A stretch of 64,000 nt of DNA, taken from Conexibacter arvalis (lineage in GTDB: Bacteria > Actinomycetota > Thermoleophilia > Solirubrobacterales > Solirubrobacteraceae). The position numbers and the translations under genes are program-made. The notes below the pieces were generated by a model. It was given only the letters and a program-made list of their open reading frames with translations, searched no databases and was not told the DNA's origin. The DNA is taken from contig NZ_JACHNU010000001.1 in assembly GCF_014199525.1 (NCBI RefSeq), positions 620,001 through 684,000 of the forward strand, written 5' to 3'. This document shows positions 6,103 through 58,194 of this stretch, one piece after another. How positions within the stretch are numbered: the stretch's first letter is position 1; each line of letters opens with the position of its first letter.

Positions 6103-6440
6103 CAGTCGAGTCCTCCTGTCGTGGCGACGTCGAGCAGCTTGCTCGGCGGGATTCTGCGAAGCAGGTTTCCGTCGAGGTCGCGGACCTCGATCGTGAGCCG
6201 TCCGGAGTCGGCGTCCTGCGAGAAGCGCAGCTCGCGCCCCTGGGCGCGCAGCTGCTGGTAGGCGCGGGAGGCGGCGTCCATCGCGTCGAGGACCTCGCGC
6301 GGCGGGCTGTCGGGGATCGTGTCGCCCGAGATGTCGGCGCGCACGACCGGCACGGGCTGCAGCGGGCGCGGCGCCGGCGAGGGCGTCCGATGCGCGGGGC
6401 TGTAGCTGGTCGGTCCGACTGGCGCGACGTCCAGGTTCAT
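6102..6440 (-). CDS. flaG: FlaG family protein
   Basis: Small protein encoded beside fliD in many bacteria that influences filament length; exact role is not settled. The start was chosen at 6440 because GGAGG lies eight bases upstream, giving 112 residues; an upstream in-frame extension lacks such a site. The C-terminal half carries the FlaG core: LRFSQDADSGRLTIEVRDLD followed by GNLLRRIPPSKLLDV (in FlaG families usually V.V.D..TGEVIRQIPPEE). The N-terminal half is Pro-rich and disordered. First gene of the flaG-fliD unit, under a sigma-28-type promoter at 6503-6529. Confidence 0.85.
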   Translation of the reverse strand: MNLDVAPVGPTSYSPAHRTPSPAPRPLQPVPVVRADISGDTIPDSPPREVLDAMDAASRAYQQLRAQGRELRFSQDADSGRLTIEVRDLDGNLLRRIPPSKLLDVATTGGLD

Positions 6441-6502
6441 GGGCGGGTCCTCCGGGCGTCCACCCCCCGGTGGGACGCCGTCTCCGTTGCGGTCTCCCAT
6501 CG

Positions 6503-6529
6503 TGGTCGGCGGGCCGCAGGCGAACTTGA
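6503..6529 (-). promoter_or_regulatory. Sigma-28 (FliA) promoter for flaG-fliD
   Basis: Minus strand: TCAAGTTC begins at 6529, and after TCAA plus exactly 15 bp comes GCCGACCA (6503-6510). TCAAGTTC matches TAAAGTTT at 6 of 8 positions; GCCGA and the last A of the -10 match. It lies 62 bp upstream of flaG, close to the end of the glycosyltransferase gene. Confidence 0.75.
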
Positions 6530-6561
6530 GGCCCGCTCGACGGACGATCGAGCGCCGTCGC

Positions 6562-32587: not shown

Positions 32588-33157
32588 ATGGCCACCTCCG
32601 TACCACCAGCGCAAGCCGAGTCCGCGTCGCCCCTGGAGCACCAGCGACGCGGGCGTGACGGTGGCCGGGTGCTCGTGCTGAACGCGACCTTCGAACCGAT
32701 CAACGTCTGCACGGTCCGTCGCGCCGTGATCCTCCTGCTGAAGGAGAAGGCCGAGATGCTGGAGGTCGGCGACTACGTCCTCCACTCCGGCAGCTCGACC
32801 GTCGCCAGGCCGGTCGTGATCCGCCTCAAGAGCTACGTGCGCGTCCCGCGCGACACGCATCGCCGCAAGATCACCCGCCGCGCCGTCTTCGCCCGCGACG
32901 ACTGGACCTGCCAGTACTGCGGCTCGCGCGGCAACCTGACCGTCGACCACGTCATCCCCCGCTCGAAGGGCGGCGGCTCGACGTGGGACAACATCGTCGC
33001 CTCCTGCGCGCCCTGCAACCGTCGCAAGGGCGACTCGCTGCCCAACCAGGCCGGCATGATCCCGAAGTCGACGCCGCGCACCCCGGGGCCGAACGTCTTC
33101 ATCCAGGTCGCGAGCCCGACGATCCCCCGCGCCTGGCGCCAGTACCTGACGATCTGA
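32588..33157 (+). CDS. HNH endonuclease family protein
   Basis: 189 residues. The HNH nuclease core is complete: DDWTCQYCGSRGNLTVDHVIPRSKGG, then NIVASCAPCNRRKGD, with two CxxC zinc pairs and the His of DH. The N-terminal part (VLNATFEPINVCTVRRAVILLL) matches a widespread actinobacterial and cyanobacterial chromosomal HNH family, probably with a housekeeping DNA role, not a phage enzyme. Start chosen at 32588 after TACACT; upstream codons belong to the repeat-rich gap. Confidence 0.9.
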   Translation: MATSVPPAQAESASPLEHQRRGRDGGRVLVLNATFEPINVCTVRRAVILLLKEKAEMLEVGDYVLHSGSSTVARPVVIRLKSYVRVPRDTHRRKITRRAVFARDDWTCQYCGSRGNLTVDHVIPRSKGGGSTWDNIVASCAPCNRRKGDSLPNQAGMIPKSTPRTPGPNVFIQVASPTIPRAWRQYLTI

Positions 33158-33311
33158 GCCGACCCGGCCATCCTGCCTACTCAGGCGCCGGCATCGTCGT
33201 GCCTGGCGCGGACGCAGGGAGCGACCACGGACTTCGTCCGCGGTGCCCGGGCCCCCGCCCACGAGCGCCCGAGGACAAAGCCAGGCGCGACGAGGCCAAG
33301 CCTGAGAAAGA

Positions 33312-33342
33312 CGAAGGGCGCTGTCGACTGCAGCGCCCTTCG
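33312..33342 (-). terminator. Strong intrinsic terminator
   Basis: Perfect 12-bp stem CGAAGGGCGCTG/CAGCGCCCTTCG, 7-nt loop, followed on the minus strand by TCTTTCTC. The T-rich tail is only on the minus-strand side. Confidence 0.85.
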
Positions 33343-33466
33343 CTCAATGCTCTGGCTGGACATGAACCTCGACCAGCTTCCGTGTCAGGGCCAGAGGGAC
33401 CAGTCCTGGCACCGATCGAGGCGGTGTCTCGGTGTGGACTCCGCTAAGCGGGGTCAGCCATCCGAC

Positions 33467-33511
33467 CTAGCGGCCGGACACCTCCAGGGTCCCGCGAAAA
33501 CTGTCAGACAA
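33467..33511 (-). CDS. Candidate 14-residue micro-ORF with near-perfect Shine-Dalgarno
   Basis: A TTG codon ten bases after GGAGG opens a 14-codon frame (MSDSFRGTLEVSGR) ending in TAG. The Shine-Dalgarno region (33516-33531) is the strongest in the window. No gene lies between it and the terminator at 33312, so it would be a free-standing leader-like or regulatory peptide. Its coding nature is unproven. Confidence 0.3.
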   Translation of the reverse strand: MSDSFRGTLEVSGR

Positions 33512-33566
33512 CTGCGGACCACCTCCTTTCTCTGGTCGACCCAGAGTAGCGGGTCCGTCAGACGGC

Positions 33567-33590
33567 GACGAAGCCGTGTCAGACTTCGTC
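33567..33590 (-). terminator. gyrA downstream hairpin
   Basis: 7-bp stem GACGAAG/CTTCGTC with 10-nt loop, starting 23 bp after the gyrA stop. No T-run. The loop region holds one of three GTCAGAC words in this gap. Confidence 0.5.
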
Positions 33591-33612
33591 CCCGTCTTTG
33601 CGGACTCGCCGA

Positions 33613-36228
<2,616 letters not shown>

Positions 36229-56850: not shown

Positions 56851-58194
56851 GTGCGCTGGCTGCTGCTGAAGGACCTCCAGATCCTGCGCCGCTCGCCGCT
56901 GCTGGTGGCGCTGCTGATCGTCTACCCGATCCTGATCGCGCTCCTGATCGGCTCGGCGCTGTCGCGCGGCCCGGGCAACCCGTCGATCGCGATCTTCAAC
57001 GAGGTGCCCGCGGAGCAGCGGACCTTCGAGGTCGGCGGCTCGTCGGTCAACGCCGACGAGTACCTGCCGCAGCTGTCGAGATCGGTCGACGTCGTCAGCG
57101 CCGAGTCGCGCGAGGAGGCGATCCGGCTCGTCGAGCAGGGCAGGGTGCTGGCGGCGGTGATCCTGCCGCCCGACATCGCCGAGCAGCTCGCGAGCGGGCG
57201 CCGGCAGCCGACGATCGAGGTCGCCTACAACGGCGAGGACCCCGTCAAGCAGCGCTACGTCGAGTCGGTCGTCAAGGCGCGGATGGCCGACGCCAACGCC
57301 GCGCTGACGGAGAAGTACGAGCAGGTCACGCTCAGATACATCGACATGCTGCGCGACGGCGGCGAGCTGACGATCCTTGGGCGCGAGGTGCCGATCCTTG
57401 GCCTGCGCGACTCGAGACGGATCCTCGACTCCGTGATCGCGACGCTTCCCCGCGACGCGCCGGAGCGCACCGCGCTCGACCAGGTCAACCGCTTCGCGAC
57501 GCTCGCGATCCAGAACCTCGGCGTCTCGACCGACGTCCTGCGCTCGGTCGGCGAGCCGATCGCGGTCAGACAGACGGTGATCGGCGGCAGAAGGACGCCG
57601 CTGGACGACTACGCGATCGCCGTCGCCGCGGCCGTGTCGCTGCTGTTCCTGACCGTCCTGCTGGCGGCCGGGCTGCTGGCGCTCGAGCGCGAGGAGCACG
57701 CCTTCTCGCGGCTGGTGCGCGGGCTCGTCTCCAAGCTCGGGCTGCTGGCGGAGAAGGTCGGCCTCGCCGCACTCTGCTCGCTGCTGGTGACGCTGGCGCT
57801 GCTCGTCGGCCTCGGCCTCTTCTTCGTCGAGCTCGACTTCGCGCGGATGCCGCTGTGGCTCGCGGCGCTGGCGCTCGGGTCGACCGCCTTCGCGGCGCTC
57901 GGGGTCGCGCTCGGCGGGCTGGCGCGGGAGGTGCGCGCCGCGTCGCTGCTCGCCTTCCTGCTGTCGCTCCCGATCGCCTTCCTCGCGCTCGTCCCGGCCG
58001 GCTCCGTGTCGGGCTGGGCCGCCGACGCGATCGCGGTCGTCTGCGCCCTGTTCCCGTTCAAGGCGACGCTGCAGGCGCTCGACGTCGCGCTCAACGACGC
58101 GCCCGAGAGCTTCGCCGCGCCGCTCCTGCACCTCGCGGCGCTGACGGGGCTCTACGTCGCGATCGCGCGGCTGGCGCTGCGGCGCTTCGCCTGA
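56851..58194 (+). CDS. ABC transporter permease (ABC-2 type)
   Basis: 447 residues, GTG start. One N-terminal membrane helix ([18 protein letters not shown], about 17-35), a large outer domain (residues about 45-250, with the [12 protein letters not shown] motif found in ABC-2 permeases), then five helices at the C-terminus with [19 protein letters not shown] between the first two. It pairs with the ATPase before it; the substrate is unknown. Many AGA codons, in contrast to the ATPase gene. Confidence 0.88.

Follow-up and report, generated by a model that had tools for sequence, protein, structure and literature searches.

The window analyzed here is a 64,000-nt stretch of the genome of Conexibacter arvalis (contig NZ_JACHNU010000001.1, positions 620,001 to 684,000), in which the minus strand at 33536-33304 looks like the gene of a stand-alone predicted RNA of ∼233 nt, both of whose ends were placed by inference. 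The genes gyrB-gyrA lie upstream of the RNA and a convergent HNH gene lies downstream (gyrA, PF00521, and HNH by Pfam). The initial annotation had singled out this gap for a near-perfect complement of the 16S rRNA 3′ end on the minus strand, which resembles a long Shine-Dalgarno (SD) sequence, followed by a 14-codon open reading frame (ORF) and an intrinsic terminator with no gene after it. The observation is real and the locus resembles a gene; behind the terminator there is only the convergent HNH gene. The features that carry the argument are as follows.

33543 to 33548, minus strand: candidate −10 box, TACTCT, recognized by the spacing of TANNNT to the SD block across loci.
33304 to 33536, minus strand: predicted small RNA (sRNA), with its 5′ end inferred at the A of ACCAG and its 3′ end at the close of the terminator tail.
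33516 to 33531, minus strand: SD block AGAAAGGAGGTGGTCC, 16 of 16 positions pairing with the 16S 3′ end, unique within one mismatch apart from the 16S antisense.
33467 to 33511, minus strand: predicted micro-ORF of 14 codons, TTG to TAG, with a start-like codon in 190 and a stop in 189 of 190 distinct loci (both 50 of 50 in the hold-out set described below).
33304 to 33342, minus strand: predicted intrinsic terminator, a 12-bp hairpin (arms 33312-33323 and 33331-33342) and the tail TCTTTCTC.

The SD block, read from 33531 to 33516 on the 3′ side of gyrA, is identical at 15 of 16 positions to the complement of the 16S tail (GGATCACCTCCTTTCT), as had been claimed. The remaining position has G facing U, and all 16 positions are able to pair with the 16S 3′ end, one of them as G·U, with a duplex energy of −27.8 kcal/mol (−28.4 kcal/mol for the exact complement). 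Within the organism's own 5.2-Mb genome GGATCACCTCCTTTCT occurs once, 3′ of conserved 16S words, and AGAAAGGAGGTGRTCC was found with at most one mismatch only at this locus and in the antisense of the 16S end, with one additional site at two mismatches.

This complementarity is maintained across relatives. Of the 85 loci compared, which came from DNA or Rfam searches, 82 have the full 16-pair potential with the 16S tail and three form 15 pairs. Variation is confined to eight wobble-permissive sites (six A/R, two C), at which a G or U leaves the pair intact, and the other eight sites are invariant in all 85 loci. The three lost pairs fall at the same variable sites, two through a C at site 1 and one through a T at site 13; an 8/8 split of this kind would arise by chance in 1 of 12,870 cases, a figure that ignores base-specific mutation rates. 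A hold-out set of 50 loci, gathered later with a short 5′ model (R2) and including the previously seen L236, gave 16 pairs in 46 loci and 15 pairs in four. R2 includes the SD and stop columns, so the hold-out counts for these two elements are partly dependent, while a start codon was not required; by eye, L222, L247, L217 and L232 are repeats within the set. Every locus was found by similarity, which favors conserved sites. The variable sites were limited to A or G in the pattern used for L001-L055 (all 55 loci passed and none was lost), and in L056-L085, as in the hold-out, the block was set at the best-pairing offset, a slight bias toward pairing. The exact 20-base 16S end was recovered in 21 of 61 relatives' genomes, not counting G027, where the match is the antisense of the RNA itself. 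A recognizable end was absent from the search output in 40 of the 61, with no variant readable as 16S, and for these an identical tail was assumed. The single-contig genome G003, 99% complete, has no 16S 3′ end within two mismatches, maybe through missing sequence.

Conservation upstream of the SD block runs from the first A of a conserved ACCAG that starts 5 nt before it, and a TANNNT box opens 15-21 nt ahead of the SD in 35 of 55, 24 of 30 and 104 of 119 loci (0-4 at two control offsets); both make a transcript start near 33536 probable. Its end is expected at ∼33304, past the 12-bp hairpin and TCTTTCTC, which are present as the initial annotation described. A simple terminator scan returned no entry in 33100-33700. 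Of 54 loci from the window's order that were searched for such a structure, nearly all have a strong GC-rich hairpin at the corresponding distance; in L007, L030 and L036 this search chose a different hairpin. The strong local folding claimed for this region was also borne out, with 33300-33610 more stable than 100 shuffles (z = −5.9).

In the window, TTG at 33511 opens 14 codons (peptide MSDSFRGTLEVSGR) that end at TAG, 33469-33467. The TTG is often lost among loci and the spacer length shifts out of phase, and the frame is regained by anchoring at GAGGTG, on which 186 of 190 distinct loci could be counted (the four omitted loci and L093 were examined separately). A stop lies 9 nt 3′ of GAGGTG in all 186 (TAG 150, TGA 23, TAA 13), with none internal; three of the four omitted loci add a stop, giving 189 of 190 overall with L050 as the exception. 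An in-frame start-like codon stands 8-13 nt behind GGAGG in 185 of 186 loci (out-of-frame control, 51/372), namely TTG 88, ATG 41, CTG 19, ATC 17, GTG 14, ATT 3, ACG 2 and ATA 1; in L093 the codon is GTG, spaced 7 nt, and ATC, TTG, GTG and CTG occur in the four omitted loci. Start and stop are mostly 10-15 codons apart. The start-like codon is CUG, AUC, AUU, AUA or ACG in about a fifth of loci; if the reading proposed below is right, non-NUG starts are conserved here at a scale that has, to our knowledge, rarely been reported for bacteria. In the main set the non-NUG codons sit at 8 nt in 41 of 42 cases and most NUG codons at 10-12 nt; NUG codons of the hold-out lie at 7-13 nt, so this relation between codon and spacing is no rule. 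Both stop and in-frame start-like codon were present in 50 of 50 hold-out loci (out-of-frame start control, 21/100). L050 (G027) appears by eye more diverged toward its 3′ side, yet its SD is an exact 16S complement, and it is maybe an altered copy.

Start and stop have been kept through repeated codon exchange, as expected of a translated RNA and with L050 (stop) as the exception: a tree of 183 loci built from the remainder of the RNA requires no fewer than 27 stop exchanges and 39 start exchanges. The peptide is a different matter. Rough dN/dS values, calculated from overlapping sequence pairs, were 1.23 for the free (loop) codons, 1.05 for the last three codons and 0.37 for the base-paired middle, on which the RNA helices impose a constraint of their own. 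The AGGT motif falls in a different reading frame, with start and stop unchanged, in 11 of the 50 hold-out loci (L233 and L248-L257, by eye), and the purifying selection on the peptide that would mark a dual-function sRNA was not found. Of the translated micro-protein first proposed, the reading frame has therefore stood and the peptide has not. Selection seems to act on translation rather than on the peptide, and a start and stop retained in nearly all copies around a drifting peptide suggest that ribosome passage is what matters.

The fold was analyzed by covariation on an alignment of 38 sequences (A1), with the following predicted elements.

33532 to 33535, minus strand: 5′ strand of helix P1, CCAG, paired in 175, 178, 176 and 169 of 189 loci, position by position.
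33484 to 33487, minus strand: 3′ strand of P1, CTGG, inside the ORF, pairing with CCAG.
33489 to 33493, minus strand: pseudoknot strand GGGAC, inside the ORF, pairing with 33396-33400 in 38 of 38 A1 sequences.
33479 to 33482, minus strand: 5′ strand of helix P3, GGTG, inside the ORF and extended by CGG, from the covariation analysis.
33423 to 33426, minus strand: 3′ strand of P3, CACC, from the covariation analysis.
33441 to 33446, minus strand: 3′ strand of helix P4, TAGCGG, whose partner extends into the stop codon, with 91.6% of cells paired.
33390 to 33410, minus strand: hairpin P7 (GCCAG/CTGGC) with loop GTCCC at 33396-33400, both-side changes in four of five pairs.
33354 to 33359, minus strand: 3′ strand of helix P8, CCAGCC, partner GGCTGA at 33454-33459, both-side changes in three of six pairs.

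P7 and P8 ranked highest in an unguided helix scan of A1. In the named structure as a whole 96.7% of cells were paired and 12 of 32 pairs had changes on both sides; none of 500 shuffles was as good, and slid versions reached 30-47% paired. P4 has both-side changes in two of five pairs, and five of the six P8 pairs form in the window copy. P1 covaries in the wider set of 189 loci though it is invariant in A1, with CG, AT, GC and TA exchanged at its inner positions. For the pseudoknot, two pairs have a compensatory case in A1, where rows L032 and L039 change in step, and L050 and L071 fit it by eye; the wider count of 175 of 189 loci is weak, since control motifs score 73-131. One strand each of P1, the pseudoknot, P3 and P4 lies inside the ORF, and that of P4 reaches the stop. 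A further helix, P2 (SD GUCC with ORF GGAC), was rejected: it is always possible in A1 and has no both-side changes, against two for the pseudoknot with the P7 loop. A local hairpin over the start codon did not exceed shuffles (P = 0.52).

At curated cut-offs Rfam found only a tRNA in the window, which therefore holds no 6S, RNase P, SRP RNA or tmRNA at that level. A permissive scan of 15 loci matched RF02471 (Ms_IGR-5) over the full model length in eight. The window copy scored 26.1 bits (gathering cut-off, 45 bits; E = 0.054 in the 15-locus scan and E = 1.1 × 10−3 in the whole genome, where it was the sole match). A copy from the same family (G273) passes with 45.5 bits, and L007 and L012 scored 43.9 and 43.5 bits. 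In the reciprocal direction model R1, constructed from the window's order alone (38 copies), matched the expected place in 54 of the 54 sources given to it, with 37.7 bits for L158 (M. houstonense), 40.9 bits for L091 (Amycolatopsis) and the weakest scores at L067 (13.0 bits, E = 0.19) and L072 (E = 0.04). Since a same-family copy passes the cut-off and the order-only model finds mycobacterial and other actinomycete loci, the predicted RNA is, by similarity, a divergent Ms_IGR-5 homologue or sister subfamily, itself below the Rfam cut-off and not a member of RF02471. Most scanned copies of the window's order also fall below that cut-off. The Rfam consensus of RF02471 pairs part of the SD block, in conflict with the covariation of P1.

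Collinear with Ms_IGR-5 over the whole model, the window copy has an SD block, a micro-ORF and GGAC/CACC elements in common with the loci found by that model. It differs in its score, in its gene neighbors and in a P1 of CCAG/CTGG rather than the CACG type, and it is in the window's order that P8 and a separate terminator were observed.

A DNA query of 33300-33610 matched 55 of 61 genomes, own included, and none was found in the other six; G037, G038, G040 and G047 had no match with R1 either. The SD block and hairpins, whose loss in relatives the initial annotation had named beforehand as counting against an RNA, are kept. Across the phylum RF02471 has matches at E ≤ 0.01 in 58 of 246 genomes, 22 of them exceeding the cut-off, and in none of 14 control genomes; R1 matched 44 of 149 genomes within the class, and R2 matched 95 of 246 phylum genomes, with a single copy in 93 of the 95. 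G279, G401 and G116 have two matches each, the second of G116 being partial and weak. Named carriers among the matches listed (at least 120 stretches, fetched by a pattern with part of the SD preset, and excluded from the SD statistics) are Actinomycetes, Acidimicrobiia, a Conexibacter, a Solirubrobacterales metagenome-assembled genome (MAG) and unclassified Actinomycetota MAGs. Two contigs labeled Acidobacteria also carry the RNA (L145 at 6373-6560, 100.7 bits; L093 at 2606-2818, 24.4 bits; both with R1), and represent either binning errors or rare presence outside Actinomycetota.

A Ms_IGR-5 transcript is reported in Streptomyces lividans and S. avermitilis, and IGR-5 in M. smegmatis, and in M. 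abscessus and M. smegmatis the homologues of Ms_IGR-5 carry ribosome-protected reads (PMC4974804). Together with the upkeep of 16S complementarity, these reads support the earlier suggestion of an RNA that binds 30S subunits. The available parts of papers naming Ms_IGR-5, among which the original description is not covered, contain no mention of its SD, ORF or pseudoknot. A separate literature search under the neighbors Rv0812/Rv0813c, covering a listing and passages, gave no sign of an sRNA.

Several known systems resemble parts of this arrangement. In translated leader ORFs and attenuators a peptide-poor ORF overlaps RNA helices and the ribosome sets the fold. The predicted RNA shares the overlap of ORF and helices; unlike them, it has no co-directional downstream gene in cis in the window, where the terminator is followed by the convergent HNH gene. 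Weak starts under IF3 control also use poor start codons, as in the GTC start of sigR in Streptomyces (PMC5472188) and the AUU/AUA starts with an extended SD in Staphylococcus aureus, infC included (PMC13009471); those, however, yield proteins, whereas here the peptide drifts and no gene follows.

Comparative analysis supports for the predicted RNA a −10 box and terminator of its own, an SD complementary to 16S, a start and stop enclosing a drifting peptide, and a fold that overlaps the ORF. We infer from these features that ribosomes may bind it in C. arvalis, switch its fold and set an output in trans. On this reading, which we consider evenly poised between right and wrong, actinobacteria have an sRNA, mostly in single copy, that acts in trans and whose fold is controlled by ribosomes that initiate on a micro-ORF of no fixed sequence, and the locus is its Solirubrobacterales version. 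30S subunits would bind the exposed SD near the 5′ end, and a weak start codon would make initiation slow. A translating ribosome would open the pseudoknot, P1 and P3, and molecules free of ribosomes would close, such that the fraction of open molecules might report initiation capacity. The 3′ domain, freed or closed, would act in trans. As an alternative to their ORF partners, the CACC and GUCC strands could take up the SD, by which the RNA would shut its own SD. The broader generalization, a widespread gene-independent riboregulator that gauges translation-initiation capacity through a maximal SD, a weak start and a ribosome-switched pseudoknotted 3′ domain acting in trans, is tentative and we lean against it. 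Ms_IGR-5 appears in the available literature as a name without a mechanism, and the kept start and stop, 16-nt 16S complementarity and weak starts supply a testable one; if true, actinobacteria including mycobacteria and streptomycetes would carry a dedicated RNA coupling ribosome or IF3 status to an output in trans.

A number of observations weigh against a ribosome-gated fold. Its translational half is weakened by L050, whose frame lacks a stop at the usual place and closes seven codons later, and by the single non-pairing SD base in the few loci noted above. In 11 of the 42 non-NUG loci a NUG lies further in, a few codons on, where initiation may occur later instead, and many hold-out TTG starts stand at a favorable 7-9 nt, which weakens the idea of slow initiation. 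On the structural side, a rival helix (ORF columns 70-73 with the 3′ strand of P7), which competes with P7, ranked third in the unguided scan, above the GGGAC/GUCCC pseudoknot in fourth place, and P1 and the GGTG/CACC part of P3 are invariant within A1. Folded without constraints, the window RNA is predicted to bury its SD (0.13 unpaired on average) at −111.2 kcal/mol. Enforcing P1, P3 and P7 raises the SD to 0.68 and the start codon to 0.36 unpaired at −95.1 kcal/mol, and keeping GGGAC free as well gives 0.60 and 0.83 at −91.3 kcal/mol; by this model, which cannot count the pseudoknot, the conserved fold costs 16-20 kcal/mol. Finally, the authors of PMC4974804 point out that ribonucleoproteins are caught in ribosome fractions as well, and they name further sRNAs with reads of this kind.

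Two rival explanations have a lesser probability. The first, which we think unlikely but the strongest of the alternatives, is ribosome parking, in which ribosomes held at the 5′ end protect the sRNA against 5′ exonuclease, the ORF serves only to let them cycle off, and function resides wholly in the 3′ domain. The SD begins at about nt 6 of the RNA, and SD- or initiation-dependent stabilization has been reviewed for STAB-SD and hbs leaders of Bacillus, which likewise have a strong SD near the 5′ end (PMC7509114). In some of the reviewed cases, however, a strong SD sufficed without a start codon, whereas the stand-alone RNA conserves start, stop and a structured 3′ domain; parking also leaves the helix strands within the ORF unexplained. 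The second is titration, by which a decoy RNA would occupy the anti-SD and lower initiation on other mRNAs. No other SD of this length exists in the genome within one mismatch, 16/16 pairing is upheld in most loci, and non-NUG starts in about a fifth of them would suit a decoy; but a decoy needs no stop codon and would presumably require copy numbers near those of free 30S subunits, and we regard this as quite unlikely.

A functional micropeptide of 10-15 residues is very improbable: the frame is conserved and T-x-E-V recurs in most GAGGTG-anchored loci, but dN/dS is near or above one outside the paired middle and the AGGT motif changes frame. A 6S- or Ms1-like RNA that binds RNA polymerase would share the length class and the character of a structured stand-alone actinobacterial RNA, and Ms1 and other polymerase-binding RNAs are common in actinobacteria (PMC9130861, PMC11077062). 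Against this, no Rfam 6S model matched in the window at curated cut-offs, the locus with gyrA upstream and HNH downstream differs from the HAD hydrolase/oxidoreductase synteny of Ms1 (PMC9130861), and IGR-5 and Ms1 are listed as separate M. smegmatis RNAs; such a function is highly improbable. Chance, a DNA-level feature or the anti-SD mimic suggested for the plus strand, which does resemble the 16S 3′ end, can be dismissed, as conservation, covariation, −10 box, ORF and terminator all belong to the minus strand.

The genes around the RNA vary, and it is therefore not tied to one of them. A gyrA-like upstream ORF was seen by eye in five of seven loci of the window's order listed, and in mycobacteria the neighbors look like an aminotransferase and an FABP-like protein. 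Among 205 loci the closest downstream ORF to be scored was convergent in 117, co-directional in 73 and absent in 15, by a rough score that in the window chose a 60-aa ORF over the HNH gene. In L044 (2193-2560, G043) the RNA carries an insertion, a tandem GC-rich repeat (GGAACGTTGTCCCGCCGAGCACCGACCC), and a similar stretch lies upstream of it. The triplicate GTCAGAC reported for the gap after gyrA was found at 33503, 33557 and 33578, with one more copy at 57565; it was rejected as a feature of the RNA, two of the three gap copies being upstream of it. At 33557-33597, between gyrA and the RNA, there is an inverted repeat with GTCAGAC at and near its arms, possibly the terminator of gyrA.
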